Shown here in pieces: positions 6,076-64,000 of a DNA stretch of 64,000 bases. Under the pieces are notes generated by a model that worked only from the letters and a program-made list of their open reading frames with translations, had not been told where the DNA came from and searched no databases. Position 1 is the stretch's first letter, and each line of letters begins with the position of its first letter. This DNA comes from Tubulanus polymorphus (Eukaryota > Nemertea > Palaeonemertea > Tubulaniformes > Tubulanidae), in contig NC_134029.1 of assembly GCF_964204645.1 (NCBI RefSeq), positions 1,993,001-2,057,000 on the forward strand, given 5' to 3'. The translations under genes were made by a program, and so were the position numbers.

Positions 6076-6079
6076 TGGT

Positions 6080-16788: not shown

Positions 16789-17466
16789 GGGATTAAATAC
16801 TGTTTACTAAGTCTATGAAATTGCAGCATCTGAAACTGATTGAAACCCTCGCATCATAAATCAAATCATACCCAGGGTTTGGCGCACAAATGATGAACTT
16901 TTTAAAAACTATCGCTGGACCCGTTCTTACCCTGGTATGCGAGGGTTTTGATAATTCTAGCCCTAGTATGCGAGGGTTTTGATAATTCTAGCCCTAGTAT
17001 GCGAGGGTTTAATTGATTCTAGCCCTTTTATGCTAGGGTTTTGATAATTCTAGCCCTGGTATGCGAGGGTTTTTATTATGGGATTATTTTGTAAGACGTT
17101 TCATGAACCCGGTTCCACTGTTCTGTGTGTGTATGTATAAACTTGTATAATCTTGTAAATTGACTTATTTTGTATGATGTGTCAAGTCCCACAATCAAAA
17201 ACCAAAAAGTTGAAATTATTTCAACTGATAATTTTTTATTATGGGACTTAGACTTTATTCTATATTGAATTGTTGTATTGTTTTATTTGAAATAAATATC
17301 TATTTTCTGTGTTGTTCTAGTTATGATTACAGACGCCAGCAGTTTCACAGACTCTGCTGCGTCACATCCCACCCGTTCAGTTTCACACACACACATAATT
17401 CAACGTGTTTTCTATTGAAGAAAAAAGTTGAAATTTGAATTATTAAAGGTTTGTGAAACGGATTCA

Positions 17467-33199: not shown

Positions 33200-33296
33200 A
33201 TGCCTATGTCCCGGTCACTCAGGCCTACTGGCCTAATACTAGCTATATTATGGATCGCCGCCGGTCAAACGTATGTCGAGGCTGGTCACAGAAGTC
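33200..33296 (+). CDS. giant gene exon 1: signal peptide
   Basis: The exon starts at ATG and encodes 32 residues plus one base. A basic N-terminus (MSRSLRP) is followed by a hydrophobic core (about residues 11-20, GLILAILWIAAG), typical of a secretory signal, with cleavage likely near residue 20-27. The donor is gtaagt. The nearby TATA box and the absence of an earlier in-frame exon support this start. Confidence 0.85.
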
Positions 33297-36200
33297 GTAA
33301 GTTTTGAAAAGAAGGCAATTTGTAGCAATTTTAGAAATAAAATTACATTCTTTTAGAATAGAATTTTACGGATTTCTTCCTAGCAAGATTTTCATAATTT
33401 CCTTTTGATTAAGCTATAATTGCAGACGCCAAAGAAAATTCTATAAGATCTTCTAGACTTTCCCGTATACGCGACAATATATGTAAATGTATGTTTAGGT
33501 TACTGCAAATGTACCGCATCTGGAGACCCTCACTACCTTACTTTTGACGAACAAGCGATTCATTTCCAAGGAGAATGCAAATATACACTGGCAAAGTCTA
33601 CAAATCCTGCAGATGTTTGTTACTTCGAAGTCGAAGTCAAGAACGAACATCGTAAAGGAAATCGGAAGGTTACGTGGACCAGGATGGTTGACATCCGATT
33701 CCGTGGAAACCTGTTCCGTATAGGTCCCGGTACTAAAGTTGCTGTAAGTTGAAATTTCACATTCGTCAAAAAATATACGAAAGAAATATTGCAAAAAGTA
33801 TTTCAATATGAATTTCATCGTTCTTATAATTTGTTAGCTATGATAGAAATTGTTATTCGAAGTTTGTTCTCATGAGAATATTAAGCTTTGTCTATTTAAC
33901 GCACACGGGTCAAGATTAACTTTCTCTTATTGAAAATTGTAAAACAGAATTCACTAAAATCTAAATAAATGAACAGGTAAATGGCATTGAAAAACAAACG
34001 CCTGTTTACAACATACCGGGAGTTCGAATTATCAAATCTGGTCGCCAACTCGTCATCGGGAACAGAAAATGCGGCTGCAAATTAACATTCGACGGAACAT
34101 TGGTTACACTGAAGCTGAAACGAAGTATTCACGGAGGTCGAGTACACGGTCTCTGCGGTAACTGTAACGGCAATAAGCACGATGATCTGAGGACCTTTGA
34201 GGGCATCGATGTCTCAACAAGTCCTAACAAATACGTGCTGATTGGGGACAGTTACTCAGTTCCGGATGATTCTGACCGACCTGTCGAGTGGTAAGATTGA
34301 ATTAAACATTTTCATGAAATACATATTCTTTTTACCAAAGGAAGGATAAAGCATAAAAGAAATTGAATTCCCACAAATTAATCAACGAATGAAAGTCCTA
34401 TATCGAATAAAGATAATTTCATATCAAACAAATGCATTTACAATAAAGATCTAATTGTTTTCAAAAAGGTGTCGCACAAAGACATACAAATCTCGATGCT
34501 CTGGTCGATTGGAATACCTGGTGAAAACAAAGAGTTATTGTGGACTAATCCGCAATAAAAACGGCCCATTCGGAGATTGTATCAGAAGCGGAAGAGTCAA
34601 CTCAAAACGCTACTACAAATTCTGTAAATTTGACGTTTGCGCTATGAAGGGTATGAAAAACCAGAGAAAGGCTGTGTGCGCCGCTTTGTCAGCTTTTGCT
34701 GAAGTTTGCGCTCAGGCTGGTTTCACCAAACGATGGAGATCGAAACGTTTCTGTCGTAAGTACTTACTACCCAAATTCATTTTCACTAGTATAAGTTTGA
34801 AGTAAGCTTATATGAAAGGAAAGTTTTCATCTTTATATCCACTCCCAAAAAGATAAAATTACCCATTACTTTTAGCAATTAAGTGCGGACGCAACCAAGT
34901 TTACAAGTCTTCTGCGAGCGGGTGTCGAAATACATGCGACTGTCCCTACTGCAGACGTAAAGCCTGTCACGAACCTAACAGAGATGGGTGCGTCTGCAAA
35001 TCAGGATACCTCTTCAGCGGTGATAAATGTGTAAAACGTCATCAATGTGGTTGTAAAAGTAAAAAAGGAAATTACTACCAGGTAATAAACCACGAGTATC
35101 TTTTATAACGATTGCTGCCCCCAACATAAACATTAATTTTATTTGTGGGTTAAAATGTATTTTCACGGTGCTGCAATCTTATTGCTTGATATGACTTTTT
35201 AGCTCGGGGCAAAATGGTACAGTAAGCAATGTTCACATTGGCTTCATTGTACTCTGAAACATGGCAAACCAAAAATCATTCATCATCGCGTCAAATGCCA
35301 TCGTAACGCACAATGTGGACTGAAAGACGGTCGCCACGCTTGTATCTGTAGAGAAGGCTACGTTGGAAATGGACTTCAATGCAAAAAAGGTACAATTATT
35401 ACATTTCTAGGAGCGCACTGTGTATGCATTAGAATAAAGTTAAATAACACAAAGGAACTCATCTCATTTATGTAATTCAGCTTGTCCAAGATTCGCCTGT
35501 CGTCGAATGTGTAAATATGGATACAAGATCGAATGTGGATGCCGTGTGTGCAAATGTAAACGTGAGTAACATTTTGGTTCAACGTGAAAATGTAGTATCT
35601 TTCAAAATTTTGAAATATTTCGTTGAGGAATAGATGAAAAAAAATTAGTTTGATAGAATTTTCAAGAACTCGAAGTGACGTCAATCTGATCATTGTCTGC
35701 GCACATGTTACCAAAACATATGTGGTGGAATTCAGTAAACATCTTTTCAGGTTCATAATTAAATAAACATTTATCACCATTAAGTGACAGGTTTTACACA
35801 ATGAATATCAATATGAACAAGATAGCTCAATAACAGATGGTACATCATCAATAGATTAATAGATTAACTGCGCAATAAATTTAGAAAAAATTTGGATACA
35901 TATCATGATAATTTAGTTAAAAAATTTTCAATATATACGTGATGAAATATTTGGTTCCTCTTTTAGTTTGATCTGTTCCACGAAGTGTTATTATAATTCT
36001 ATTCAATCTGCCATATCATGATAAAAACTATTTTCTTTTACAGGATGCCCAGAATTTAAGTGCTATAAGAAATGTCGTTTTGGTTACGTTCGTAATTCCC
36101 GTGGATGCCGTCAGTGCCGCTGTAACAAATGTAAGCCCCAAATCTATGAAACTTCTGATTATTCAAACATCACTTTATATACGTCAGTATATTGGATGGT

Positions 36201-39200
36201 AAAGAACAATTAATTCAATTATGCTATCTATTTCTTAAATGATAGTTTGTCCGAGGCCACGATGTTGGAAACGATGTCCATTCGGAAGAACGTGGAAGCG
36301 TAACAAATTTGGTTGCTGGTACTGCGTTTGCCGCCGACCTGGTAAAGATTCTATCGAATTAATATTTTACAAATGATTTCCGTTCTAAACTCTTAGATCA
36401 TTCAGTTCATGTTAAATATTTTCGTTTTAGTTTGCAAACCACCAAAATGTCCTACAAGCTGTAAATATGGCGTTCGTCACACTAGAAACCGATATGGATG
36501 CAAAATCTGTGTTTGTCGATGTAAGTTCCTATCATGGTTAATTTGTTTCTGTTTGGAAAACTCAGTTATTTCACCGATTATCAGTTTTACTTTTTGATAT
36601 TTTGAAGACTGTAAAAAGGTGAAATGTCCAAGAAAATGTAGATATGGTTACATCGTTAAAGTGAATCAACGCGGGTGTCTTAAGACTTGTAGATGTCGCA
36701 GTGAGTATTGTTTTCGCGATTTCCGAATGTGGCAATATTTGCTATTCTGTGAATCATTGATGTTTATTTATGAATAATGTATCTAACAGAAAATCTGAAA
36801 TTCATTTTCTAGCATGTAAACCATCTCCGTGTCCACTGAAATGTCGATATGGCTATCGAACTATTGTCAAAGGTGGATGCCGTCTGGCTTGTTGGTGCAA
36901 ACGTAAGTGCCATTCAGTGATGGTGATGGAATGTCTATTGCGACTTCAGTGAAATATACATCAAAATTCAGTAAAATGTAAATTTTTCAAAAGTTAACAG
37001 ATTTTTGTCTTTTTTCTTAGATTGTCATCCAGCTAAATGTCCGCGCCGAAGATCGTGTAGACATGGACTCAAGAAAACTTACAGACGCGGCTGCCTTATC
37101 CGATGTCGATGTAAAAGTAAGCCTCGTTCAGTACATGTCGCTCTTTCCAAATGTAGTGACTTTGTCTTGATCTAATGAACGACAATTTTGATTTGTTACT
37201 TTTTATAGAATGTAAATCTGTTCGCTGTCCACGAAAATGTGACTTTGGTTACAAGAAGAAATGGCGCGGTAAATGTTTGGTCAGATGCAAGTGCAAACGT
37301 GAGTAAAGATCTATCTACATTCCTCAGGGTACAATTTATCAAACACATGAAAATCAAGAGTGATAGAATTGTTTTCCTTTTAGCATGCAGACCGGTTCGC
37401 TGTCCAAAGTATTGTCCTTTCGGAACCAAACAAGCTTTCAAGAAGAACTGTCGAATTCATTGTTCATGCAAACGTAAGATACTCCGTCTATTTCTCAGTT
37501 TCCTGGTTTAACCCGATACACAGAGTTTCGAAAATCTGAATTTTTCAATCTTCTGTAATTAGGATGCAATCCTGCTAAATGTCCTCATAATTGCCACTTC
37601 GGACGTAGGAGAAAGTTCAAACTGAAATGCCTGAAGAAATGTACATGCAAACGTGAGTATTAAGATTGTTAGATTTCGATTTCGATGTAACTATGTGAAT
37701 TTGACGGAACGGGAATAATGAAGAGGGGAATAATTACATTGAAATCACTTCTTTTTCATGTAGCATGCTCTGCCGTCAGAGCAAAGTGTCCAAAGAGATG
37801 CCCGCATGGACGCAGGAAGAAATACAAACACGGCTGCAGAGTTCACTGTCGTTGCAAGCGTACGTGCTTTCAACACATCACGATGTTCTTTCATAAAATT
37901 ACAAATTTATAATCGATGATTAAAATTTGATTTTTCAATGATCTCTTACAGGTTGTCATCCAGCTCACTGCCCAAAACACTGTCATTTCGGACGTGCCAA
38001 ACGATTCTATCACGGTTGCCTCAAGAGTTGCCGATGCAAACGTACGTCATAGATATTATGTCAGAATTTTTCCTCACTTTCTAAATTATTTTATGTCAGA
38101 ATCTTTTAGGGTTATTTTCTAAACTTTTTCTTCAGCATGTTCCGCTGTTCGTAAACGCTGTCCAGATCACTGTCCCTTTGGCAAAAAGAGGAAATTTGTC
38201 AATCGCTGTTTGATCAAGTGTAAATGCAAAAGTAAGAAACGCAAATATTCACCTTAGAAATTTTCTATAAAATACGATACTTGTTTCAGTCCTCCGATTG
38301 ATATTCAAATGAATTAAATTGATTACTTCTTTTTTCAACAGAATGTGAACCAAAACCATGTCCACGTCGATGTCCATTTGGTAAAATCAAGAAATACAAA
38401 CGCAAATGTCGAGTTAAATGCAGATGCAGACGTAAGTATATTCAAATCAATTAATTCAGTTCTTAAGACTTTGTCTTTTCTATATCATGTAGAAAAGTTG
38501 GTAAATCGAGCTTGCTTAATTATTCAATAGCGTGTCGTCATGTTCGAGCTCGTTGCGCCAGTTTCTGTCCATTCGGATACATCAAAAAGTACAAACATGG
38601 TTGTCTTCTTAAGTGTGACTGCAAACGTAAGTCTTTCCTAAAAATACACACAACTTTGATGATCAACGTTTTCATAGAATCAAAACCGCTTAGTTTGTAA
38701 GGTAAGTGCTTCTATCGTTTCTGAACTTCGATTATCAACTCTTTGTAGCTTGCAAAGCCGCCAAATGTCCAAAGATTTGTTTCTGGGGACGCAAGAAAAA
38801 GTACAAGCGCGGATGTAGAATCAGTTGTAAATGCAGAGGTAATGCAGAATTAGATTTATGACATATCATTAACGAAGGAATGTTCCTCTTTGTTTGATAA
38901 TCTGGTTTCTTTGTTCGTAGGCTGCAAAAATAAGAAATGTCCAAAATTCTGTCCATTTGGCACAATCCAGAAATGGGTTCATAAATGTCGCAGGAAATGT
39001 GAATGCAAACGTAAGTTTGAAAGTTCGAAATGCTTACAATCATTATGATCATAGCTGACTCGTGAAATTTACCACGATTTGTTTTTAGCATGTTCATACA
39101 TCAGAAAACGTTGCCCGAAGAACTGTAGATTCGGTGTCATTCGCAAGAGGAAATACAACTGTACAGTCAAGTGTAAATGTAAACGTAAGTATTAAATCCT

Positions 39201-42200
39201 TTCCGATTGTTATATATCAGCCCTTCATGATGAAGCCTCATAAATAAGCTGATTTACTTCATGCTGTGGTATTTACCGTTTTGCCTCTGAAAGGGTTTGT
39301 AGTTTTGTTAATCATACGTAACGAGGATATATATCTACATTCTATTTTCCCCGTAGCATGTAGTCCTGTCCCTTGTCCAAGGAACTGCTGGTGGGGTAAG
39401 ATCAAGAAATACAAATACAGATGTCTTGTTAGATGTAAATGCAAACGTAAGTTAATATGAATTCATGGGATGAGTAATTCTATTTCTAATTGGTGATTTT
39501 ATTCAAAAATTGCTCAATTTAAAACAAATCTCCAACTTACGTTACGCGTGTTATTTGACAGGATGCCCGAAAGCCAGATGTCCAAAGAAATGCTACTTTG
39601 GGTACAAAAAGACGATCAAACATGGCTGCAGAGTCGGTTGCAGATGCAAAGGTACGGAGCTTTTCTGAGAGGATTATCAATTCGGTGTACGATATACCAT
39701 TTACAAATATCTTCGATATAATGGTTTTCAGGTTGTAGAAAAGCCAAGTGTCCACTTCGCTGTCCATTCGGCGTTAAACGACGTTTCTATAAGAAATGCC
39801 TCTACAGATGTCACTGTATCCGTAAGTTTCACTCGACACATAAACATATCTTAAACTAGAGTTATAGATCGCATGCCTCATGGGCACCAGGGTTTGAATC
39901 ACCGTGATATTACTTTTTAAGATTGTAAACCTGCCAAATGTCCCAAGAATTGTCACTGGGGTAAGAAAAAGTCCTTCTACAAACGCTGTCTCACTCGTTG
40001 TCGATGTAAACGTAAGTTTCATATTCTGATATTGTCATGGGGATGATAGCAAAATGATCTGATTATAAAAAAATGATGATTTTTCTGGAATTCTCTTTCA
40101 CAGCATGTAAGCCAGCTCGCTGTCCGAAATTCTGTCCTCATGGAATGCGCAAGAGACGCAAGCATGGATGTCGTGTAAGCTGCAAATGCAAAGGTATTCT
40201 AATTCATATTTCGATAATGATTCCAGGATGCTATGTAATATATTAAAACCATCAATTGCTTTAATATTCTGATCTTTTATTGAAATATTCTTTTTGTAAA
40301 TGCTTTATCTTCTAAATTTCAGGATGTCGACCTGTCAGATGTCCAAGAAATTGTCCTCTCGGTAAAATCAGGAAGTTCTACTATAGATGCCTTAAAACCT
40401 GCAAATGCAAACGTAAGTGACTAAAGCTGAAACAAACTAACGGATTTAAATAAAACCTAAAAATATAGGGCGTAATTTTCGATAATTCTGAGATTAAGTA
40501 TTACAACATTAAGATAGTAGAGTGGGGATTAAACTGATTGATATCGATGTATCAAATTATTATAGTAATTACATTGTATAAAATTGTGATCTTTACAGCT
40601 TGTAAACGCTATCCATGTCCACGTAATTGCCCCCATGGCTTGAAGAAGAAATACTTCCATGGCTGCAGAATTCATTGTCGGTGCAAACGTAAGTTCATGT
40701 GGCTTTTCTCAAAATGCATCGCTTCGAGTAATAAGTCTGATTACTCCAAGCTTCGATATAGGTTGCAGGATCACGGCTAGATAACTTTGAAAATGCAAGT
40801 CAGAATGTCGTTTGTTATTTTCTAGGTTGCCAAATGGCCAAATGCCCAAGACATTGTCATTTCGGTAAAATACAGAAATACAAAGGAAGCTGTCGAATTC
40901 GCTGCAAATGTAGACGTAAATATGAATTTTCTTTATGCAAATTAATACAAATGATTTTGCAATTCCATGAAAATAATATAGTTTGTTTATGAAAATGGCC
41001 GATGGATGTTTCAAAATGAGGTGCATTTTTATTTCGGTCTAGCGTGTAAACCAGCTCGTTGTCCACGCCACTGTTATTGGGGACGTGTCAAGAAATTCAA
41101 ACACAAATGCCGAATCAGCTGTAAATGTAAACCATGTCGACGTGCTAAATGTCCACGCCGTTGTGCTTTCGGCAAGATTAAGAAATTCAAACATGGATGT
41201 CTCAGGCGTTGTAAATGTAGACGTATGTATTAAGAGAATAACTTCACAAGTATACAACTTCATAAGTATACAAGGGCCATACTTAGAAATGTTTTGAAAA
41301 TTGTAATCAATTGATTTTGTTTCCAGCATGTTCCCACGTGCGTAAAACTTGTCCAGGAAACTGCCGTCATGGCACAATAATAAAAAGGAAACATGGCTGT
41401 CAGATTTCATGCCGTTGTAGACGTGAGTTACCTACAAATCTCACGATTATGTGCGAAGTTTTTCATCATAATTTGTTAATCTGAACATATATATGTTTTT
41501 ATAGCTTGTCGCCCGGCTCCGTGTCCACGACGTCGTTGCTGGTGGGGAAAGGTTAAACGATACAACAAATATAATTGCCGCACAACTTGTAGATGTAAAC
41601 GTGAGTGCATATCAATCATCTTATGTATTTCCAAAAAAATTATTTGTGATCAAACCTGTGAAGTTTAATCTGTTAAGATTCTCGATAAGACGTATGTTAA
41701 TCCTTCTCTAGCGTGCAAACCAGTTTCATGCCCGCGTCGATGTTACTGGGGACGAGTCAAAAAGTACAAACATAAATGCCGCGTAAGTTGTAGATGTAAA
41801 ACATGCAGACCAGCTCGATGCCCGAAATTCTGTCCATTCGGAAAAATCAAACGCATTAAACATAAATGTCGTCGCAGTTGCCGATGTCGGCGTAAGTATA
41901 AATATTCCTAATCTACGGGATTACAACATCCCCAGAAAGTAATAATACTATCAAATGTTTTTTGCTTGCAGCATGCAGTCATGTTCGAAAATCATGTCCA
42001 CGCCACTGTAGGAACGGAGTCATTCGTAAACGCAGACATGGCTGTCAAGTTAGATGCCGCTGTCGACCATGTACCCCAGCTAGATGCCCACAGTTCTGCC
42101 CATGGGGACGTGTCAAGAAATATAAACAACGTTGTCGTATCAGTTGTAAATGCAAACGTAAGACAAGTGATCTACAATTGCTATACATTTCTACGATTTG

Positions 42201-45200
42201 TCAACGTACCATGTGAAAATTAATTGGTGAAATTTATAATTACAGCATGTAAACCCGCTCGCTGTCCAAGACGCTGTCGCTGGGGATACAAAAAACGACG
42301 AAGACACAGTTGCCGCACTAGCTGTTCCTGTAAACGTAAGTTTTCAAAAATTAATCAAAGTATAGACCGCCCTCTTGATCTGCGAATACCATTCACATAA
42401 TTCAATTATTTTCAGCATGTAGACCAGTTCGCTGCCCTCGTAGCTGCCACTGGGGACGGATCAAGAAATACAAATACAACTGCCGAGTCAAATGTCATTG
42501 CAAACGTATGTGCCTTTTCGATTTTTAAATGCACAGTAAGATTAAATTTCGAAAGATTATTTATTGGATGGATCTACTGAGAAATATCTGTTTAATTTCT
42601 GCAGCGTGTAAACCTGCACGATGTCCACGTCGCTGTTACTGGGGTAAGGTAAAGCGATTTAAACACCGATGTCGCATCAGTTGTAAATGCAAACGATGCA
42701 GCCCAGCACACTGTCCACGTCGATGCCACTGGGGCAAAATTAAGATTCGTAAACACGGATGCATTGTCAAGTGCAGATGCAAACGTAAATATCTTTTTCA
42801 TTTCAACCATTTAATAATTGAATGAAGTATCCATATTCCTAAGTCTCCTGCTCCGATTTATAGCATGCAGTCCAGCTCCATGTCCACGCCGCTGTTACTG
42901 GGGCAAGGCAAAGAAATACAGACATAGATGCCGAGTTCGGTGCAGATGCACGCCATGCAGACCGGCTAAATGTCCGAAACATTGTCACTGGGGTAAAATA
43001 AAGAAGTTCAGGCACGGATGCCTCAGGAGGTGCAGTTGTAAACGTAAGGGCTTCATCCAACTAATATATACGCGAATTTAAAACCACTAAAATGATGCAT
43101 GCCAGTAGCTCATTTTCTAATTCCCCCACGTTTAGCATGCAAACCAGTGAGATGTCCGCGAAATTGCGCCCATGGCTACGTCAAGAAATTCAAGCACAAA
43201 TGCCGTCGCAGTTGTCGGTGTAGAAAATGTCGACCACGTCGATGTCCAAGGAGATGCCAACATGGATACATTAAGAAATTCGACAAATATAATTGCGTCA
43301 GGAGATGCAGATGTAGACGTGAGTTCAACTTATTCTAGCTATACACGTTTATACACTTTACATGTGTGAAACCTGACGCATAACCATGATTAAATTGTAT
43401 TTACAGCTGCAAACTGTAGGGATTCAAAGAAGATTGGGCCAGGAAGAGCAAGTATCTCGCGTTGGTATTATAACCGTAGTTTGAAAGACTGTAAGAAGTT
43501 TTACTGGGGTGGAAAGAGACCTAATGGTAACAACTTTAGATCATTGAAAGCATGCCGCAAAGAGTGCGTCAGTAAGTCGGAAATATGAGCGTCTTTGAAA
43601 TGTCACCTTAAAATCATAAATGAGATACATAACAAAAGAGCAGTTTACCATATATATACATGCATGAGATGGATAAACATTTCAGTAAATTTTAGAGTAT
43701 TTGATATGATTTATTCTCTTCCTTCCTCAGAATGCAGACCTGTTCCATGTCCATCACGCTGCCGCTATGGGAAAATAAAGCGCTACAGAAGAGGTGGTTG
43801 TCGATACATTTGCCGATGCCGTGGCTGTAAAAAGGCCAGCTGTCCATCCAAACGTCACTGTGGTTACCGTGGCTTCATAAAGAAATACAACAAGCATGGA
43901 TGTCGCATCAGATGCAGATGCAAACGTATGTGAAGAAATATGACGAGAGTTTTGTAGTTTCCCCAAACGACATAGCTCTATGTTGGTTATTGGTGGATAA
44001 TTTTTGAAATGACCATAAATTGGAAAATATATTTTTTCAGCTTGCAGACCAGCTCACTGTCCGAAGCGTTGCAGATATGGCAGGATAAAGAAGTTCAAAC
44101 ACAAATGTCGAATTAGCTGTCGATGCAGACCATGTAGAATGGCCAAGTGTCCATCACGACGCCACTGTGGATACCGTGGATTCATCAAGAAAAACAACAA
44201 GCACGGATGCCGTAGAAGCTGTAGATGTAAACGTAAGTTGATCATGTGAAAATAATTCTTCAAAGATTTTTCTGTTATTACATGCCTATGTTTGATTTGA
44301 TTATATTGGAAATGTTACGTACTCTCATAGCATGTCGACCAGCTCGTTGTCCAAGATCCTGTAGATATGGTAAGATCAAGAAGTACAGGTACAAGTGTCG
44401 CTACAGCTGCAGATGTAGACCATGTAGAATGGCCAAGTGTCCATCCAAACGTCACTGTGGTTACCGAGGATTTATCAAGAAACACAACAAGCATGGATGT
44501 CGCAGAAGCTGTAGATGCAAACGTACGTTTATCATACATCACCCATAAAATATTATTAACTAAAATCTTCAAGAAAACCAGCTTTTTCTGATAATTCACA
44601 TATATCTTCTCTATTCTATAGCATGTAGACCAGCCCGTTGTCCACGTAAATGTCCTTTTGGTCGTATCAAGAAATACAGATATAAATGTCGTTACAGTTG
44701 CAGATGCAAACGTAAGATATTACGAGCTGCCTGATAGGATTTTGACTCCATAAGGTAATAACCAATGTCTCACAAAGTTCATATCTTTTATTTGCAGCAT
44801 GTAAACCCGCTCCTTGTCCCCGTCGTTGTTACTGGGGTAAGATAAAACGTTATAGACACAACTGTCGTCTGAAATGTAGATGCAAACCATGTAGACCAGC
44901 ACGTTGTCCACGTATATGCCACTGGGGCAAAACTAAGAAATTCAGACACGGATGTCTTAGACGATGCCGATGCAAACGTAAGCAGTTGCAAAATATACAT
45001 ATTCTACCATTTGCAACCTGTCTTTACTTCGGCCCATTTCTATATGATAAAGTTATCCTTTTATCTAGCATGCAGTCCAGCTTCCTGCCCTCAGAGGTGT
45101 CGATATGGCAAAATTAAGAAATACAAACACAACTGCCGCATTCACTGTAGATGTAGACGTAAGTTGAATATACTTCAGGATAACTTCTGATGAAACATAT

Positions 45201-54200: not shown

Positions 54201-57200
54201 TGTTATTGAATAATCGGTTTCATTACTGATAGAGTGTAAACCAGCCCAATGTCCAAGACGATGTAAATATGGCAAAATTAAGAAATACAGACGCCACTGC
54301 AGAATTAGTTGTAGATGTAGACCATGTAGAATGGCCAAATGTCCATCTAGACGTCACTGCGGTTACCGTGGATTCATTAAGAAATACAACAAACATGGAT
54401 GTCGCAGAAGTTGTAGATGCAAACGTAAGTTTCATTTGTGACTGGAAAGTGGTTGCATTAGAAGATAGATAGATGATAGTGATTGCTTTAATTGATGTTT
54501 GATATCAACATAGATCTTGTGCTTCAATTGTCGTTTGTACATTCATAGCATGTAGACCAGCTCCATGTCCAAGAAGATGTCATTGGGGCCGAATCAAGAA
54601 ATACCGACACAGATGCCGCTATAGCTGTAAATGTAAAATATGCAGACCAGCTAAATGTCCACGCCGATGCTACTGGGGGAAGATCATCAAACGCAGACAT
54701 GGATGCATCAGAAAATGTCAATGTAAAGAGTGTAAACCAGTCCGTTGTCCAAAATCATGTAGATATGGAAAGATCAAGAAATACAGACATAACTGTCGTG
54801 TCAGATGTAAATGTAGACCATGTAGAATGGCCAAATGTCCATCACGTCGTCACTGTGGATACCGTGGATTTATCAAGAAACACAACAGACATGGATGTCG
54901 CATCAGATGCAAGTGCAAACGTATGTGCCAATTACCTGGTCCATGGTTTTCCGTTTGTTCATCCACTTAAAACATGAAAAGGATTAATAAAAGATTTTTT
55001 TTAGTAAATTTACAATGGCAATCACAAATAAAGAGAACACATAAGTCAAACATAATTTTGATAAAATAAAGATAAAACACTTCTGAGAAAATAGGTTATT
55101 TAGTTGTTTAATGGGCCTACTTGTTAATGAGATTCCCTTCTATTCAGCGTGCAGACCGGCTCGTTGTCCTCGCCGTTGTCACTGGGGAGTCAAAAAGAAG
55201 CTCAGATATGGTTGTCGATACAGCTGTAAATGTAAACGTATGTATTTTTTGCCTGACAGTTTCTAATTCTTTTTTAAATGAAACGACTGGCGATATCTTA
55301 CAAGAACTTTTTGACGTGACTATTTCTATAATATTTACTATAGCATGCATGCCAGCTCGATGTCCAAAACATTGCAAATATGGCAAGATCAAGAAACACA
55401 AACACAATTGTCGAAGGAGTTGTAAATGTAGATCATGTAGAATGGCAAGATGTCCAACCAGACGTCACTGTGGTTACCGAGGATTCATAAAAAGATTCAA
55501 TAGACATGGTTGTCGCACTGGATGTCGTTGTAAACGTAGGGATTATCTTTAAACGATTGATTGATTAAAAAGAATATATAAGAATATTTTGACAAGGATT
55601 CCGAAAATATTTCAGCTTGTAGACCTGCTCGATGTCCAAGAACCTGCCGATGGGGTAAGAAAAAGAAATACAGATACAACTGCCGTTATCTCTGCCGTTG
55701 TAAACGTAAGTAGATTAAGCACTAATGTCAATTGTTTGTTGAAAGAAATATTTTGATAACTAATAAACGTACTTATATATATAGCATGTAGACCTGCTTC
55801 ATGCCCACGCGGTTGTCGTTGGGGACGTATCAAGAAATTCAAACACAAGTGCCGTATTAGCTGCAGATGTAAACCGTGCAGACCAGCCAAATGTCCACGT
55901 CGCTGTCACTGGGGAAAACTTAAGATAAAGAAACATGGCTGCCTAAGATCCTGCCGATGTAAACCTTGTAAACCAGCTCATTGTCCACGCAGATGCAGGT
56001 ACGGCAAGATTAAGAAATTCAGACATCGTTGCCGCATCGGCTGTCGCTGCAGACCTTGCAAGATGGCTAGGTGTCCACCCAGGTCTGTCTGCCACTGGGG
56101 ATATAGGAAAAAACACAACAAGCATGGATGTCGCACAAGTTGCAGATGTAAACGTAAGTAGGAGTTTGCACTTGCGGAAGGTTGATTAATGTATATAAAA
56201 GTAAAAAGCATTCGACTTCTACTTTTAAATATGTAATTGATGTAAACTGTGGGAATAATTATTCATTTCTTTTTGCCAGCATGCAGACCAGTGTCATGTC
56301 CTCGTCACTGTAACTGGGGACGCAGGAAGAAATATCGACACAAATGCCGCATCAGCTGTAAATGCAGACCATGCAGACCAGTTCCATGTCCACGCCGCTG
56401 TCACTGGGGTCGTGTCAAGAAATTCAGACACAGATGTCGAGTCAGCTGCCAATGTAAACGTAAGTAATATTTGTATTATTAATTAAAGTAACAAGCTTAC
56501 GTGACGGCCGTATACTTTTTTCGAGGCTTTTCGAATGCAGACATTCAAATATCAACTATGTTATTTTACTTCCTCTTTTTTTAAGCTTGTCGGCCAGCAA
56601 GATGCCCTCGAAATTGCTGGTGGGGTAAAATCAAGAAACGAAAACATAAATGTATTGTAGGCTGCAGATGTCGACGTAAGTTTGATGAAATTATTCAAAA
56701 TATTTAGTCGTGTGTTGACTCTTTGCTATTTCTCAAGGCAATATTTTCGCATGTAGCATGTAAGCCAGCTCGTTGTCCAAAACGCTGTCATTGGGGACGC
56801 ATCAAGAAATTCAGACATAATTGTCGCACCAGATGCAGATGCAAACCTTGTCGCCCTGCCCGCTGTCCAAAATTCTGCCCCTGGGGCAAGGTCAAAAAAC
56901 GTAGGCATGGGTGTCTCAGGAGCTGCAGATGTAAAGCATGTAAACGGGCTCGTTGCCCAAGTTCATGTAAATACGGGAAGATCAAGAAATACAAGTACAA
57001 ATGTCGTATCAGCTGTAAATGCAGACGTAAGTAGAACATTAATATAACGATTAAAGATTTATATTGCACTGGAAAATTATCGTCAATAATGAATACCCAA
57101 ATAAACATATCATTGATAGCGTGCAGACGAGCTAAATGTCCACGTCGTTGTCACTGGGGTAAGATCAAACGTTTCAACAAACATGGATGCCGTATCCGCT

Positions 57201-60200
57201 GTAAATGTAAACCATGCAGGCCAGCAAGATGTCCAAATAGATGTAGACATGGTTTCACCAAGGTCCGCCGACATGGATGTGTCCGTCGATGTACATGCAA
57301 ACGTGAGTATGAATATCGAATATCGATATCGAATATTCAATGTAAAGATGTTTTTTGTCGACCAAACCTCATAACCAATAATCGTAAATTCAGGTCACCC
57401 TTGTGAACAGCCAAAGAAAGTTGGTCCTGGCAAGGCTCGTATCAGACGTTGGTATTACAACCATAGTGTAAAAGACTGTAAGAAGTTCTACTGGGGTGGA
57501 ATGAAAGCAAATGGTAACAACTTTAAATCTTTGAGAGCTTGTCGAAAGAGATGCGTCCGTGAGTATGAAAGCACGATTTTTGGTCGAATCATGGTTTTAT
57601 GGTCATTATGGTTTGCAACAAATGACATCGCATGAATACGGATTATAATTCCAGCATGTAAACCAGCTCCTTGTCCAAGAAGCTGTAAATATGGCAAAAT
57701 TAAGAAGTTCAAGCGTGGATGTCGTGTTGTCTGTCGGTGTAGACCTTGTAGACGTGCTCGCTGTCCATCTAAACGTCACTGCGGTTATCGTGGCCTCATC
57801 AAGAAATATAACAAACATGGTTGTCGTAGAAGCTGTAGATGCAAACGTGAGATATTAATCCCAATGATAACATTAGATTCATAGAAATTGAAATTCAGCA
57901 ATTCCATTCTATCGAATAATAAATCTTTTTCAGCATGCAGACCCGCACCATGCCCAAGAAGATGTTACTGGGGACGAATCAAGAAATACAGATACAGATG
58001 CCGCTATAGCTGTAAATGCAGACCATGTAGACCAGCTAAATGTCCACGTGTTTGTCATTGGGGCAAGATCAAGAAGCGTCGACATGGATGTATTAGAAGC
58101 TGTATTTGCAAACGTACGTTTTTATTTTTTACATAGGTTGGCTAGATTATGTTTCAGAATATTCTCAAATGCCACTTTTATTTCACAGCTTGCAGTCCAG
58201 CCCGTTGTCCAAGGTCCTGCAGATATGGTAAAATTAAGAAGTTCAGGCACAATTGTCGCGTCAGATGTAAATGCAGACCATGTAGAATGGCAAAGTGCCC
58301 ATCTCGAAGACACTGCGGATATCGCGGATTCATCAAGAAACACAACAAGCATGGATGTCGCAGGAGCTGTAGGTGCAAACGTAAGTTACCCCTTAAAAAT
58401 CGGTTCACGAATGTTTGAATTGTGAAAGTAAATTTATTCCAAGTATCGATTATTATTCTTCAAGCATGCCGCCCCGCTCGTTGCCCACGTCACTGTCACT
58501 GGGGAATCAAAAAGAAATCAAGATATGGATGTCGCTATAGCTGTACATGTAAACGTATGTTTCACATATTTGTTTAAATATCATATTAGTTTAAATGAAT
58601 ACATCGGTGAGTTGCTTTAATAATATCGGATTTCGTTTTACTAGCATGCAGACCAGCTTCCTGTCCAAAGCATTGCATCTTGGGACGTATCAAGAAGTTT
58701 AGACATAAATGTCGCGTGAGTTGTAGATGCAAACCATGCAGACCTGCCAGGTGTCCAAAATTCTGTCCATGGGGAAAGATAAAAGGACGTAGACATGGAT
58801 GCCTGCGAAGCTGTAAATGCAAACGTAAGAATATTTTTCGCTTTGATTTCATTTCAGTGACCAATCAGAAACTTTATTCAATAGTATTTACTTCATTCAA
58901 GTACGTTATATTGCAGATTGCAAGCCGGCCCGCTGTCCAAGAGGCTGTAAATATGGCAAGATCAAGAAACATAAATACAAATGTCGCATCGGCTGTAAAT
59001 GCAGACCATGTAGAATGGCGAAATGTCCATCGAGACGTGCTTGTGGTTATCGTGGATACATAAAAAGATACAACAGGCATGGATGCCGAAAAGGTTGCAC
59101 ATGCAAACGTACGTTTTAAGTTTACTTTTAGAAAATCGATGTAATAAACAAAAGCTTTTCTAATGTATTGTTTTGTATGTCTATGTTCAGTGCAGTAAAT
59201 AAGAACGATATATTTCATATTTCAGCTTGCCGACCAGCTCGCTGTCCACGTCACTGCTCGTTTGGTCGTATAAAAAAATACAGATACAGATGTCGCTATA
59301 GTTGCAGATGCAAACGTGAGTAATGTTATTTTCAATGAGATGATCGATTAATATCTTCTCCCAACTGCAAAAGAGAGATAAATTTCCGAAATATGCCTTT
59401 CCCTCAAGCATGCAAGCCGGCTCGATGTCCACGCGTTTGTCACTGGGGAATGAGGAAGAAACACAGACGTAACTGTCGAATCAGTTGTCGCTGTCGACCA
59501 TGCAGGCCAGTTCGATGTCCACGTCGTTGCCACTGGGGCAGGATCAAGAAACGCAGACACGGCTGTTTGAGACTCTGCAAATGCAAACGTAATGAGTTTT
59601 ATCAGTTTGGATTATATTGAGAGGTATTACATGCATATAGATTTCTTTCTAAGGATCATGAATTGTTTTTCAGCGTGTAAACCGGCAAGTTGTCCGAAAC
59701 GATGTAGATATGGTAAAATCAAGAAGTTCAAGCATAACTGTCGCATCAGCTGCAGATGCAGACCATGTAGAATGGCCAAATGTCCATCCAAACGTCACTG
59801 TGGTTACCGTGGATTCGTAAGAAAATACAACAAACATGGATGCCGCAGAAGTTGCAAATGCAAACGTGTGTACATAATCAAGAACATCGGATAGACGTGT
59901 CGATTGCAAAGTCATTGCCACTTATTGATAGATTAGATCTAAGAAATCGTTTTCTGCATGTTGATCATTTTTATTTTACAGCGTGTAGACCAGCTCGCTG
60001 TCCTAGAAGATGTCATTGGGGACGTGTCAAAAAATTCAGATACAGATGTCGTTACAGTTGTACATGTAAATCATGTAGAGCAGCTAAATGTCCACGTCGC
60101 TGCGCATTCGGAAAGATAATAAAACGTAGACATGGTTGTCTCAGAAGTTGCCGCTGTAGACGTATGTCTTTTTAACGAAGCGTTATTTATTTGCGATTTT

Positions 60201-63200
60201 TTAAAGTGGTACAATTCCATTGAAATATATCATAGAATGTGATAACTATATACTTTGTTTTAATTCCATTTGACAGCATGTGCTGATGTAAGAAAGTCAT
60301 GTCCGCGCCGCTGTAAACATGGTGTTATCCGTAAACGTAGACATGGCTGCCAGGTCGGATGTAAATGCAGACAATGCAGACCGGCATCATGTCCCAAAGT
60401 GTGTCATTGGGGACGTATCAAGAAATTCAAACGAAAATGTCGCATCAGTTGTAGATGTAAACCATGTAGACCAGCACGCTGTCCCAAATTCTGTCCGTTT
60501 GGAAAGATCAAGATAAGAAAACATGGTTGCCTGAGGAAATGCAAATGCAAACGTAATTAATATTCTAAGTCCTATTATCAATAAGCAGGCCGGCTTTTGT
60601 AACTATAACACCGTAATAATTTCCCAATGATACTGATATTTACTTACTCTTATCAGCATGCAAGCGTGATAGATGTCCGAAAAGATGTCCTCATGGTGTC
60701 AAGAAAATCTTTAAATTCAAATGCCGTGTTAGATGCAGATGCAAAGGTTCGTGCAATATTTTTCGAACACATACTTGATTGATAGTCATGAAGATACGAA
60801 ATATGTTATTGAATAATCGGTTTCATTACTGATAGAGTGTAAACCAGCCCAATGTCCAAGACGATGTAAATATGGCAAAATTAAGAAATACAGACGCCAC
60901 TGCAGAATTAGTTGTAGATGTAGACCATGTAGAATGGCCAAATGTCCATCTAGACGTCACTGCGGTTACCGTGGATTCATTAAGAAATACAACAAACATG
61001 GATGTCGCAGAAGTTGTAGATGCAAACGTAAGTTTCATTTGTAACTGGAAAGTGGTTGCATTAGAAGATAGATAGATGATAGTGATTGCTTTAATTGATG
61101 TTTGATATCAACATAGATCTTGTGCTTCAATTGTCGTTTTGTACATTCTTAGCATGTAGACCAGCTCCATGTCCAAGAAGATGTCATTGGGGCCGAATCA
61201 AGAAATACCGACACAGATGCCGCTATAGCTGTAAATGTAAAATATGCAGACCAGCTAAATGTCCACGCCGATGCTACTGGGGGAAGATCATCAAACGCAG
61301 ACATGGATGCATCAGAAAATGTCAATGTAAAGAGTGTAAACCAGTCCGTTGTCCAAAATCATGTAGATATGGAAAGATCAAGAAATACAGACATAACTGT
61401 CGTGTCAGATGTAAATGTAGACCATGTAGAATGGCCAAATGTCCATCACGTCGTCACTGTGGATACCGTGGATTTATCAAGAAACACAACAGACATGGAT
61501 GTCGCATCAGATGCAAGTGCAAACGTATGTGCCAATTACCTGGTCCATGGTTTTCCGTTTGTTCATCCACTTAAAACATGAAAAAGATTAATAAAGGATT
61601 TTTTTTAGTAAATTACAATGGCAATCACAAATAAAGAGAACACATAAGTCAAACATAATTTTGATAAAATAAAGATAAAACACTACTGAGAAAATAGGTT
61701 ATTTAGTGGTTTAATGGGCCTACTTGTTAATGAGATTCCCTTCTATTCAGCGTGCAGACCGGCTCGTTGTCCTCGCCGTTGTCACTGGGGAGTCAAAAAG
61801 AAGCTCAGATATGGTTGTCGATACAGCTGTAAATGTAAACGTATGTATTTTTTGCATGACAGTTTCTAATTCTTTTTTAAATGAAACGACTGGCGATATC
61901 TTACAAGAACTTTTTGACGTGACTATTTCTATATTATTTACTATAGCATGCATGCCAGCTCGATGTCCAAAACATTGCAAATATGGCAAGATCAAGAAAC
62001 ACAAACACAATTGTCGAAGGAGTTGTAAATGTAGATCATGTAGAATGGCAAGATGTCCAACCAGACGTCACTGTGGTTACCGAGGATTCATAAAAAGATT
62101 CAATAGACATGGTTGTCGCACTGGATGTCGTTGTAAACGTAGGGATTATCTTTAAACGATTGATTGATTAAAAAGAATATACATAATTTGACAAGGATTC
62201 CGAAAATATTTCAGCTTGTAGACCTGTTCGATGTCCAAGAACCTGCCGATGGGGTAAGAAAAAGAAATACAGATACAACTGCCGTTATCTCTGCCGTTGT
62301 AAACGTAAGTAGATTAAGCACTAATTTCAATTGTTTGTTGAAAGAAATATTTTGATAACTAATAAACGTACTTATCTATATAGCATGTAGACCTGCTTCA
62401 TGCCCACGAGGTTGTCGTTGGGGACGTATCAAGAAATTCAAACACAAGTGCCGTATTAGCTGCAGATGTAAACCGTGCAGACCAGCCAAATGTCCACGTC
62501 GCTGTCACTGGGGAAAACTTAAGATAAAGAAACACGGCTGCCTAAGATCCTGCCGATGTAAACCTTGTAAACCAGCTCATTGTCCACGCAGATGCAGGTA
62601 CGGCAAGATTAAGAAATTCAGACATCGTTGCCGCATCGGCTGTCGCTGCAGACCTTGCAAGATGGCTAGATGTCCACCCAGGTCTGTCTGCCACTGGGGA
62701 TATAGGAAAAAATACAACAAGCATGGATGTCGCACAAGTTGCAGATGTAAACGTAAGTAGGAGTTTGCACTTGCAGAAGGTTGATTAATGTATATAAAAG
62801 TAAAAAACATTTGACATCTACTTTTAAATATGTAAATAATGTAAACTGTGGGAATAATTATTCATTTCTTTTTGCCAGCATGCAGACCAGTGTCATGTCC
62901 ACGTCACTGTAACTGGGGACGCAGGAAGAAATACCGACATAAATGCCGCATCAGCTGTAAATGCAGACCATGCAGACCAGTTCCATGTCCACGCCGCTGT
63001 CACTGGGGTCGTATCAAGAAATTCAGACACAGATGTCGAGTCAGCTGCCAATGTAAACGTAAGTAATATTTGTATTATTAATTAAAGTAACAAGCTTACG
63101 TGACGGCCGTATACTTTTTTCGAGGCTTTTCGAATGCAGACATTCAAATATCAACTATGTTATTTTACTTCCTCTCTTTTTAAGCTTGTCGGCCAGCAAG

Positions 63201-64000
63201 ATGCCCTCGAAATTGCTGGTGGGGTAAAATCAAGAAACGAAAACATAACTGTGTTGTTGGCTGCAGATGCCGACGTAAGTTTGATAAATCATCCAAAATA
63301 TCTAGGCGTATGTTGACTCTGCTAGCTATTGCTCAAGGCAATATTTTTTACCTTTAGCATGTAAGCCAGCTCGTTGTCCAAAGCTCTGTCATTGGGGTCG
63401 CATCAAGAAATTCAGACACAATTGTCGCATCAGATGCAGATGCAAACCATGTCGCCCTGCCCGCTGTCCGAAATTCTGTCCTTGGGGCAAGGTAAAAAAA
63501 CGTAGGCATGGATGTCTCAGAAGCTGCAGATGTAAATCATGTAAACGAGCTCGTTGCCCAAGTTCATGTAAATACGGAAAGATCAAGAAATACAAATACA
63601 AGTGTCGTATCAGCTGTAAATGCAGGCGTAAGTAGAACATAAATATGTTGATTCAAGACCTTATTAATTGTAGTGCCATATCATTGTCAAATAAGGGTAT
63701 TCATAAAATATATATATCATTGATAGCGTGCAGACGAGCTAAATGTCCACGTCGTTGTTACTGGGGTAAGATCAAACGCTTCAATAAACATGGATGTCGC
63801 ATCCGATGTAAATGTAAACCATGCAGACCAGCGAAATGTCCGCGAAGATGCAAATTTGGTTTCAATAAAGTCCGCAGGCACGGCTGTGTACGTCGATGCA
63901 CATGCAAACGTATGTATACATAATATGGAATATAAATTAGTTTTTTATCACTTTTCCTCACTCCATAGCCATAATTGTAGGTCACCCATGTAATCAGCCG
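33200..64000 (+). CDS. giant secreted vWD-C8-TIL protein with ~175 antistasin-like and 5 Kunitz-like modules (3' end beyond window)
   Basis: One multi-exon gene runs to the window edge. I place about 114 exons, all joining in frame, encoding about 6,000 residues so far. Order: signal peptide; vWD (residues about 33-219); C8 (220-315); TIL (316-383); VWC/EGF-like (384-445); then an unbroken array of six-cysteine modules with consensus C-x4-C-P-x2-C-x-[WYF]-G-x2-K-K-[FY]-x3-C-x3-C-x-C, joined by two-residue K-P linkers. The module matches the antistasin family pattern. All array exons are symmetric phase 1-1 and a multiple of three bases long, which splits the linker Pro codon. Five exons encode Kunitz-type domains instead. 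About one residue in five is Cys and more than one in three is Lys or Arg. The vWD-C8-TIL head is that of gel-forming mucins and related extracellular multimers. I know of no described protein with this architecture. Function is unknown. Confidence 0.9.
33499..34290 (+). CDS. giant gene exons 2-3: von Willebrand factor type D domain
   Basis: The exons are 33499-33743 and 33977-34290. The vWD landmarks are GDPHYLTFD (residues 41-49), FQGECKYTLA, and near the C-terminal end GLCGNCNGN (172-180) followed by DDL (183-185). These correspond to the calcium-site region and the CGLCGN-type motif of vWD domains. In mucins and VWF these domains support disulfide-linked multimer assembly. The domain is complete. 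It is already basic compared with typical vWD domains. Confidence 0.92.
34469..34755 (+). CDS. giant gene exon 4: C8 domain
   Basis: Directly follows vWD, as in mucins, zonadhesin, otogelin and VWF. The eight-cysteine pattern is visible: W-C near the start (junction with exon 3), then C in KSRCSG, KSYCGL, GDCIR, KFCKFDVCAMKG, AVCAALSAF and EVCAQ, ending KRFC. The domain has unusually many Lys and Arg for a C8. It ends in gtaagt. Confidence 0.9.
34876..35081 (+). CDS. giant gene exon 5: TIL (trypsin inhibitor-like cysteine-rich) domain
   Basis: The exon encodes a pattern beginning IKCGRNQVYKSSASGC, then TCDCPYC, HEPNRDGCVCKSGYL and CVKRHQCGC. This is the usual TIL layout found after vWD-C8. 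It is complete and in frame with the flanking exons. Confidence 0.88.
35203..35389 (+). CDS. giant gene exon 6: VWC-like / EGF-like cysteine segment
   Basis: Starts with a VWC-like W-Y...C...C stretch that follows TIL domains in mucin-type proteins. It ends ACICREGYVGNGLQC, an EGF-type C-terminal loop. It links the vWD-C8-TIL head to the repeat array. The first antistasin-like exon follows 91 bases later. Confidence 0.75.
35481..40915 (+). CDS. array block 1: 26 single-module exons (antistasin-like 1-26)
   Basis: Exons: 35481-35561, 36044-36130, 36246-36341, 36431-36520, 36608-36700, 36813-36902, 37021-37116, 37209-37298, 37384-37473, 37563-37652, 37764-37859, 37952-38041, 38136-38231, 38342-38431, 38531-38626, 38749-38838, 38921-39010, 39089-39184, 39357-39446, 39562-39651, 39732-39821, 39922-40011, 40104-40193, 40323-40412, 40599-40688, 40826-40915. 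Each holds exactly one module (27-32 residues) and introns are mostly 80-180 bases. Modules 1-4 keep the classic antistasin ending G-C-x2-C-x-C (for example GCRVCKCK type). From module 5 onward the spacing becomes C-x3-C-x-C and the sequence more basic. These are the most diverged modules, consistent with the oldest part of the array. Confidence 0.88.
39855..39905 (+). repeat. tRNA-like (SINE?) fragment in an intron of the giant gene
   Basis: Contains GGGTTTGAATCACCG, a B-box-like stretch, in the intron between two single-module exons. It is too short and degenerate for a firm call. Confidence 0.2.
41043..43318 (+). CDS. array block 2: 10 exons, 16 antistasin-like modules
   Basis: Exons (modules): 41043-41222 (2), 41327-41422 (1), 41505-41600 (1), 41712-41891 (2), 41972-42157 (2), 42246-42335 (1), 42416-42505 (1), 42605-42784 (2), 42864-43043 (2), 43136-43318 (2). 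Two-module exons appear here for the first time. The modules within one exon are joined by C-K-x-C without an intron. Exons at 41327 and 41972 start with the S-H-V-R-K-x-C-P variant, which has five residues between Cys1 and Cys2. Confidence 0.9.
43407..43571 (+). CDS. Kunitz-like exon K1 (four-cysteine, 14-38 disulfide absent)
   Basis: The 165-base phase 1-1 exon encodes a Kunitz/BPTI fold: ISRWYYNRS, a central DCKKFYWGG, GNNFRS and a final ACRKEC. The cysteine expected at BPTI position 14 is Gly (GPGRAS) and the one expected at 38 is replaced (WGGKRPNG), so only the 5-55 and 30-51 pairs remain. Arg follows directly in the P1-equivalent position. This is the most diverged of the five copies. 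Confidence 0.9.
43731..48890 (+). CDS. array block 3: 18 exons, ~35 antistasin-like modules
   Basis: Exons (modules): 43731-43925 (2), 44041-44232 (2), 44331-44522 (2), 44622-44711 (1), 44798-44977 (2), 45069-45158 (1), 45290-45472 (2), 45551-45640 (1), 45749-45937 (2), 46028-46207 (2), 46316-46507 (2), 46592-46681 (1), 46755-46934 (2), 47020-47109 (1), 47193-47384 (2), 47499-47858 (4), 47955-48320 (4), 48708-48890 (2). A second module subtype appears right after K1, with C-P-[SP]-[KR]-R-H-C-G-Y-R-G-[FY], two residues longer between Cys2 and Cys3 (starting in the exon at 43731). Four-module exons occur at 47499 and 47955. The 387-base intron before 48708 is long for this region and contains three copies of TTTCATG. 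Confidence 0.9.
48961..49125 (+). CDS. Kunitz-like exon K2 (four-cysteine)
   Basis: Same 165-base module as K1. HPCKQPKKVGPGRARI is followed by RWYYNRS, DCRKFHWGG, NGNNFRS and ACRQRC. Gly replaces Cys14 and Ala replaces Cys38. The P1-to-P4' stretch R-A-R-I resembles the reactive loop K-A-R-I of BPTI. Confidence 0.92.
49199..50681 (+). CDS. array block 4: 5 exons, 10 antistasin-like modules
   Basis: Exons (modules): 49199-49378 (2), 49484-49663 (2), 49799-49894 (1), 50141-50410 (3), 50499-50681 (2). The second module at 49199 is atypical, with only two residues between Cys2 and Cys3 (KCGGCHWG). The 49799 exon is the S-D-I-R-V-R variant. The final exon, with its FNKHGC module, is the type that always precedes a Kunitz exon from here on. 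Confidence 0.9.
50798..50962 (+). CDS. Kunitz-like exon K3 (four-cysteine)
   Basis: HPCSQAKKVGPGRARI, RWYYNHS, DCKKFYWGG, NGNNFKS, ACRKRC. Cys14 to Gly and Cys38 to Met/Lys region (WGGMKANG), as in the other copies. The left border of the 6.6 kb duplication falls inside this exon (about 50865): its 3' part is nearly identical to K4, its 5' part less so. Confidence 0.92.
50865..57460 (+). repeat. 6.6 kb segmental tandem duplication, copy 1
   Basis: Exons and introns match 57461-64000 one-to-one at an offset of about 6,596-6,607 bases. One 180-base exon (51338 versus 57934) differs at a single base, and its following 75-base intron differs at about three. Similarity declines near the ends of the unit (for example the exon at 56757 versus 63358). 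Confidence 0.92.
51059..57302 (+). CDS. array block 5: 22 exons, 44 antistasin-like modules (duplication copy 1)
   Basis: Exons (modules): 51059-51250 (2), 51338-51517 (2), 51593-51784 (2), 51869-51958 (1), 52049-52228 (2), 52310-52501 (2), 52619-52708 (1), 52802-52981 (2), 53067-53258 (2), 53375-53554 (2), 53670-53945 (3), 54054-54143 (1), 54233-54424 (2), 54549-54920 (4), 55148-55237 (1), 55344-55535 (2), 55616-55705 (1), 55785-56153 (4), 56280-56459 (2), 56586-56675 (1), 56757-57026 (3), 57120-57302 (2). The modules mix the standard, A-D-V-R-K and M-A-K-C-P-S types in a fixed order. All exons are phase 1-1 and the splice sites are intact. Confidence 0.92.
57394..57558 (+). CDS. Kunitz-like exon K4 (four-cysteine)
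   Basis: HPCEQPKKVGPGKARI with Lys at the P1-equivalent position instead of Arg; the rest (RWYYNHS, DCKKFYWGG, NGNNFKS, ACRKRC) is as K3. Cys14 and Cys38 are absent. Confidence 0.92.
57655..63909 (+). CDS. array block 6: 22 exons, 44 antistasin-like modules (duplication copy 2)
   Basis: Exons (modules): 57655-57846 (2), 57934-58113 (2), 58189-58380 (2), 58465-58554 (1), 58645-58824 (2), 58917-59108 (2), 59226-59315 (1), 59409-59588 (2), 59674-59865 (2), 59982-60161 (2), 60277-60552 (3), 60657-60746 (1), 60836-61027 (2), 61153-61524 (4), 61751-61840 (1), 61947-62138 (2), 62215-62304 (1), 62384-62752 (4), 62879-63058 (2), 63185-63274 (1), 63358-63627 (3), 63727-63909 (2). No frame disruption or splice-site loss is seen, so the second copy looks functional. 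Confidence 0.92.
63981..64000 (+). CDS. Kunitz-like exon K5, start only
   Basis: After a TAG acceptor the sequence GTCACCCATGTAATCAGCC reads (R)HPCNQP, the first residues of the same Kunitz-like module as K2-K4. The window ends here, so the gene continues. Confidence 0.8.

Follow-up and report, generated by a model that had tools for sequence, protein, structure and literature searches.

A giant polycationic protein of Tubulanus polymorphus joins a single VWD-C8-TIL head to 616 antistasin-type modules and is a candidate structural component of mucus

A 64,000-nucleotide stretch of the genome of the palaeonemertean ribbon worm Tubulanus polymorphus (bases 1,993,001-2,057,000 of contig C5, NC_134029.1, in a 267.8-Mb assembly of 77 contigs; hereafter the window) contains the beginning of a giant gene, which we followed through 99 kb of downstream sequence added to the window, carrying the window numbering past 64,000 (extended coordinates). 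The gene lies on the forward strand, runs from 33,200 to extended coordinate 138,233 (C5:2,131,233) and comprises 406 exons over 105 kb, which encode 20,720 amino acids with a sole, terminal stop codon and none internal. Its product begins with a VWD-C8-TIL head and continues as an array of 616 antistasin-type modules (613 regular and 3 irregular) with 24 Kunitz modules among them; the array ends at extended coordinate 137,826 and is followed by two short basic tail exons and the stop at 138,233. Within the window, 113 in-phase exons encode 6,030 amino acids, including 175 antistasin-type modules and four complete Kunitz modules, a fifth (63981-64145) being cut by the edge. An earlier sequence-only reading of the window had described about 6,000 residues without a stop by the window edge and about 175 modules, and both figures were reproduced; no stop was seen because the gene continues beyond the edge. 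The extent given in that reading, 33200 to 64000, was right at its start and too short at its end, the full product being about 3.4 times longer than the part visible in the window. The anatomy and charge of this protein, the purifying selection acting on it and the loss of the inhibitory residue from its antistasin-type modules are read directly from the gene; as to its role, we propose with moderate confidence that it would be a secreted bead-string structural polycation of about 2.5 MDa that cross-links polyanions in mucus or in a tube.

Because the exon chain was assembled by splice rules, its splice geometry was tested apart from the assembly. The donors of the array exons, and both ends of the Kunitz and irregular exons, had been picked by the required splice letters at the correct phase. 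In the first pass, all 371 module exons had an AG exactly 2 nt ahead of the first Cys codon, and in 362 the first GT was located 4 nt past the final Cys codon. In the final set the AG occupied that position in 374 of 374 module exons, whereas at each of 15 other offsets tested as controls it was found in 0-6 of the 374, indicating that the array exons are not due to chance. All 398 array exons have a length divisible by 3, so that unequal crossing-over and exon skipping would preserve the frame, and 183 of the 371 module exons hold 2-5 modules each. The 404 introns checked in a 405-exon model were GT-AG in 403 cases and GC-AG in one (at extended coordinate 115206, inside the array, after exon 115116-115205); the exon added subsequently encodes 27 residues and is flanked by AG and GT. 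The G+C content is 45.6% in exons and 29.8% in introns, and the longest intron measures 513 bp, hardly enough to conceal a gene boundary. As judged from this exon chain, head, array and tail are one gene, in agreement with the earlier reading.

Duplications inside the array allowed the selection acting on it to be estimated. The two copies of a 6.5-kb segment are 96.7% identical over 6,535 columns (megablast), and their 23 duplicated exon pairs (copy 2 has an additional exon, which was left unpaired) gave a synonymous divergence (dS) of 0.088 and a nonsynonymous divergence (dN) of 0.010, hence a dN/dS of 0.115. Similarly, 63 reciprocal-best module pairs, with equal spacing and 1-14 differences, yielded a ratio of nonsynonymous to synonymous differences (pN/pS) of 0.105 when single-difference codons only were counted. 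Of the 82 amino-acid changes between these module pairs, none fell at a Cys, where about 26% were expected; a single change involved an acid (6-8% expected). Recent duplicates are under purifying selection, and the encoded protein is maintained with rigid cysteines. The features of the gene within the window, all on the forward strand, are as follows.

33200..33296, + strand: exon 1, with the start codon and a signal-peptide-like leader (ATG, hydrophobic core and donor GTAAGT, by eye)
33499..34290, + strand: VWD domain, in two exons (33499-33743 and 33977-34290); Pfam VWD, E = 3.7e-28
34469..34755, + strand: C8 domain exon, aligned to the Mytilus protein and to solved chains
34876..35081, + strand: TIL domain exon; Pfam TIL 23.8 bits (cut-off 24.5), with Mytilus and solved-chain alignments
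35203..35389, + strand: EGF-like exon, end of the head, aligned to the Mytilus protein, which has a precomputed EGF-type domain
35481..36519, + strand: antistasin modules 1-4, in four exons; Pfam Antistasin 24.3, 31.9, 18.1 and 20.0 bits (cut-off 21.2)
35481..64000, + strand: antistasin-type array, with 175 of its modules inside the window (array end at 137,826), from splice geometry and module count
43407..43571, + strand: Kunitz exon 1, four Cys
48961..49125, + strand: Kunitz exon 2, four Cys; Pfam Kunitz_BPTI 69.3 bits
50798..50962, + strand: Kunitz exon 3, four Cys
57394..57558, + strand: Kunitz exon 4, four Cys
63981..64000, + strand: first part of Kunitz exon 5, which extends past the window edge to 64145
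50793..57304, + strand: 6.5-kb segmental duplication, copy 1 (megablast 96.7%, 6,535 columns)
57389..63911, + strand: 6.5-kb segmental duplication, copy 2 (dS 0.088, dN 0.010)

The head consists, in this order, of a leader, VWD, C8 and TIL domains and an EGF-like exon, and contains one VWD-C8-TIL D assembly only. The hydrophobic core of the leader is consistent with the secretory signal noted earlier. Pfam recognized VWD clearly and placed TIL just below its cut-off, and no C8 match was found in the head at E values up to 0.1. The head aligned with a zonadhesin-like protein of Mytilus edulis (37% over 416 columns, the EGF part included), and the solved chains of FCGBP, VWF and mucin align across its VWD, C8 and TIL domains. 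The vWD-C8-TIL assignment of the earlier reading was thereby upheld, by Pfam for VWD and by the Mytilus and FCGBP/VWF/mucin alignments for C8 and TIL, and these alignments identify the head as being of the VWF/mucin/FCGBP type. The D assembly is what the Tubulanus protein has in common with FCGBP, VWF and the gel-forming mucins. It differs from them in having a single such assembly and a tail in which a Pfam scan (E values up to 0.1) matched no cystine-knot family, the sole match there being Antistasin. By contrast with the gel-forming mucins, moreover, its body is polycationic, and Ser and Thr make up just 4.47% of the 20,155 body residues, so that there is no Ser/Thr-rich glycosylated region.

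Computed before the 27-residue exon was added, the whole protein has a mass of about 2.47 MDa and contains 35% Lys plus Arg and 18.5% Cys. It holds 7,272 Lys and Arg, 127 Asp and Glu and 3,833 Cys residues, and its net charge of +7,145, with a mean of +9.87 per regular module, bears out the polycationic character claimed before. Asp and Glu are absent from 571 of the 613 regular modules, and the minimum net charge of any 200-residue stretch beyond residue 500 is +60. Two-residue linkers join the regular modules at 582 of 612 junctions; 413 of these 582 end in Pro, a linker residue that resists cleavage after Lys or Arg, and 52 are dibasic. In-silico digestion with trypsin gave peptides with a median length of 3, and those of at least 7 residues cover 5,297 of the 20,720 residues, about a quarter. 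With peptides this short, mucus proteomes made with trypsin are predicted to cover the giant protein poorly.

Pfam assigns the modules to the antistasin family mainly at the two ends of the array. Eight of the first ten modules match Antistasin (PF02822) at E values up to 1, modules 1, 2, 5 and 6 exceeding the cut-off of 21.2 bits, and the last module scores 39 bits. The window has 44 two-module exons, 39 of them distinct. Of these 39, 17 matched Antistasin at E values up to 1, the best at 9.3e-5, and no other Pfam family matched more than one; three other core stretches gave no Pfam match at E values up to 0.1. Many core modules are recognized as antistasin weakly or not at all. On the domains named in the earlier reading, Pfam agreed for VWD and Kunitz_BPTI, left TIL under its cut-off and C8 unreported, and recovered antistasin at the array ends, with weak or absent matches in many core modules. 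Only 2 of the 613 regular modules, situated close to opposite ends of the array, have exactly the canonical antistasin Cys spacing, 4-3-10-2-1; in 440 of the 613 the spacing is 4-3-11-3-1. Among regular modules, the x2 gap that antistasin has from Cys 4 to Cys 5 occurs only in three at the array start (modules 2-4, module 1 being irregular) and in the last module.

The same genome has, at C1:23,693,001-23,697,000, an ordinary tandem array of antistasin modules, most of them slightly acidic, that is built from a repeating module set. It has x10 and x2 gaps, and nine of its ten modules carry a net charge of -1 or -2 and one of +4, whereas the modules of the giant protein are mostly 4-3-11-3-1, average +9.87 and have Pro at the P1-equivalent position in 595 of 613 cases. 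Between the last module of the giant protein and one module in this ordinary array, 17 of 26 residues are identical. When 200 of the 440 core modules were compared by hhalign with 8 distinct canonical antistasins of the same genome, the score was 13.3 and the probability 9%, and 1 of 30 column-shuffled controls scored higher; this comparison is unconvincing as support for an antistasin derivation of the core. A search of solved structures with the core gave no match up to an E value of 10. The ends of the array are its most diverged parts, the mean best identity to another unit being 0.65 in the first and last bins and up to 0.99 inside, and units resemble one another most at a lag of 45, a pattern expected of an array growing by unequal crossing-over. 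Because of the graded end modules, we regard the array as antistasin-derived; its core has diverged too far to be assigned by its sequence unaided. An ordinary antistasin array was probably the starting point of the gene, which would have expanded as symmetric phase-1 exons crossed over unequally.

Considering this anatomy, we infer that the protein is secreted into mucus, where it would meet polyanionic partners and form a gel. Once released, its roughly 7,000 net positive charges would bind acidic mucins, sulfated glycans, DNA and bacterial surfaces, and the cross-linking of these polyanions would produce an ionic gel or a tube wall, so that the protein would resemble an ordinary mucin with its charge inverted. 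Chains may be anchored by the head or linked through it by disulfides, and the interspersed Kunitz modules may slow the digestion of a chain so rich in Lys and Arg. More tentatively, and with the balance tilted against it, the protein could be called an "inverse mucin", in which the glycosylated polyanionic body of a mucin is replaced by 640 disulfide-knotted beads that would gel acidic mucus ionically into a tube or defensive gel, with the Kunitz modules as the gel's own guards. Tubulanus worms live in mucus tubes. Sandcastle worm cement offers a precedent for a secreted polycation condensed by polyanions, its polybasic proteins forming coacervates; those proteins are small and Cys-poor, whereas the Tubulanus protein is a giant string of Cys-rich modules. 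Passages of PMC6410017 describe the thick mucus of nemertean skin as chemically little explored. In the parts of PMC12846013 consulted, antistasin- and Kazal-type inhibitors are listed from the mucus of two heteronemerteans, and antistasin-type proteins come from the mucus or proboscis of other nemerteans in excerpts of PMC12846013, PMC9132205 and PMC10674772. WAP and antistasin-like domains occur together in an adhesive protein of a limpet, according to an excerpt of PMC7333891. The foot and mantle, tissues suggested in the earlier reading, fit a mollusc and not a ribbon worm; the gel idea seems no less plausible given the thick mucus of ribbon worms.

Several points weigh against a structural polycation of mucus. 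With a single D assembly and no cystine-knot match in the Pfam scan of the tail, covalent networks, such as the disulfide multimers raised in the earlier reading, are hypothetical. Changes that alter Lys/Arg status make up 36 of the 82 amino-acid changes between module pairs (0.44, against about 0.395 expected); since they are not rarer than expected, single charges are no better protected than other residues, apart from the constraint on the sequence as a whole and the rarity of acids. Finally, an antistasin-like peptide was also found in a sea-water control, where misidentification was suspected, in the portion of PMC10674772 consulted.

Among the other functions considered, an antimicrobial or membrane-active polymer, whose cationic knotted beads would act in mucus by killing or aggregating microbes or by deterring predators, is the least improbable, although we think it unlikely. 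Small, Cys-rich cationic modules, 571 of 613 without acids, would suit such a role, and nemertean mucus has cytolytic and neurotoxic activity according to passages of PMC6410017; the modules, however, are joined covalently in one giant chain, where 413 of the 582 two-residue linkers end in Pro, and Pfam matched no antimicrobial family in the stretches scanned. We attach a distinctly lower probability to another extracellular matrix (an egg coat, cuticle, proboscis secretion or gland granule matrix) that packs polyanions. The same anatomy would suit any matrix of this kind, and antistasin-type proteins are known from the nemertean proboscis too, in the excerpts cited above.

A protease-inhibitor array directed against predator or microbial proteases would account for the presence of both the antistasin and the Kunitz families, and we consider it just as improbable as the alternative matrix. 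Position 34 of the antistasin core lies after the second Cys in structure 1skz, from which the numbering was taken, and Arg34 is the P1 residue of antistasin. The equivalent residue of the regular antistasin-type modules is Pro in 595 of 613 and Lys or Arg in only 6, so that classical inhibition by these modules is unlikely and the inhibitory role offered for them in the earlier reading is not borne out. That reading had named the two families correctly, but the Kunitz modules are few (24 as against 616), and 22 of the 24 lack two Cys. All 24 have Lys or Arg at P1, followed by Ala at P1', and the basic P1 favors inhibition; Cys14 and Cys38 are both absent from 22 of them, both kept in 2 (extended coordinates 83412-83576 and 115296-115460) and in no case is one found alone, and loss of this pair should weaken the Kunitz binding loop. 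The modules thus resemble Kunitz/BPTI in their basic P1 and in matching Kunitz_BPTI (69.3 and 71.2 bits for the 2 of 24 exons scanned, cut-off 21) and differ in the missing pair, which is also missing from Conkunitzin-S1. With their basic P1 retained, the Kunitz modules may still inhibit proteases weakly.

A genome search with a Kunitz query gave 54 matches (57 first-look candidates, all scored), of which the 24 array copies are 56-98% identical to the query and the remaining 30 at most 50%. In a tree of 55 columns with long branches, to which the two Cys columns themselves contribute, the 24 array copies group together (95/95) and the 22 four-Cys copies are nested inside them (96/86), suggesting that the Cys14-Cys38 disulfide was lost once and that amplification followed. 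Elsewhere in the genome, the region C1:9,370,001-9,376,000 holds at least eight Kunitz modules with the conventional six Cys, together with a single antistasin module and a stretch that we take to be WAP-like.

Slightly less credible again is a polyprotein precursor from which numerous separate cationic peptides would be released. Self-contained repeated modules and 52 dibasic linkers among the 582 would fit such processing, but Pro ends 413 of those linkers, disfavoring cleavage into small peptides, and 183 of the 371 module exons contain 2-5 modules within one exon. That several genes or a decaying array were mis-chained, or that the locus is an assembly artefact, is barely credible: the locus is very repetitive and exon ends were selected by demanding in-phase splice letters, but 20,720 codons run without an internal stop, dN/dS is 0.115, no intron exceeds 513 bp, and the duplicate copies, about 3% apart, are judged different enough for long reads to separate.

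We searched for relatives of the giant protein. A 185-residue array query against 5.8 billion proteins, in a search reaching proteins of about 102-324 residues, returned 12 candidates, none at E values up to 0.001; with a fused query (array plus neighbor gene), the best 120 of 851 matches all carried the domain of the neighbor gene, and weaker array matches would not show. In a paralogue search (150 of 312 candidates scored), the array matches listed all lie in this locus. No protein of the same plan was found in the protein searches, all of which were limited by candidate length, or in the literature covered, namely open-licence PMC papers. The component families are known, and their scale, charge and combination are new to us. 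To our knowledge, this would be the most positively charged single polypeptide described and, if the chain is correct, its 20,720 residues would place it among the longest proteins known, titin being longer. The proposed role, if true, would represent a mucin plan with the charge reversed and disulfide beads in place of sugars, a new material principle in animal mucus, and a protease-inhibitor family that lost its inhibitory residue and was recruited as structural charge, graded modules persisting at the array ends. If the inverse-mucin reading holds, tryptic proteomics and short-read transcriptomics would both detect the protein poorly.

Directly upstream of the giant gene, at about 30100-31850, lies an N6-methyl-AMP deaminase-like gene; the pieces of it used, which make up 52% of the fused query, were 100% identical to a Tubulanus polymorphus record. 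An open frame on the minus strand at 26370-26795 resembles a mitochondrial carrier, presumably SLC25A46. Three near-identical arrays of a 31-bp tandem repeat occupy 16133-16275, 16930-17073 and 17727-18344, their starts being 797 bp apart, and G-rich short tandem repeats of the GGGAGG type are found on the plus strand at 5900-6080, 8800-9010 and 11540-11700. Rfam gave no match at the gathering threshold in the window. Flow cytometry of worms named Tubulanus polymorphus gave genome sizes of 313 Mb (Pacific) and 358 Mb (Atlantic) in a passage of PMC8468679, and the 267.8-Mb assembly is somewhat smaller than both. Contig C77 of that assembly, 15.6 kb long, contains no mitochondrial genes, and some of its frames resemble a mobile-element integrase by eye.

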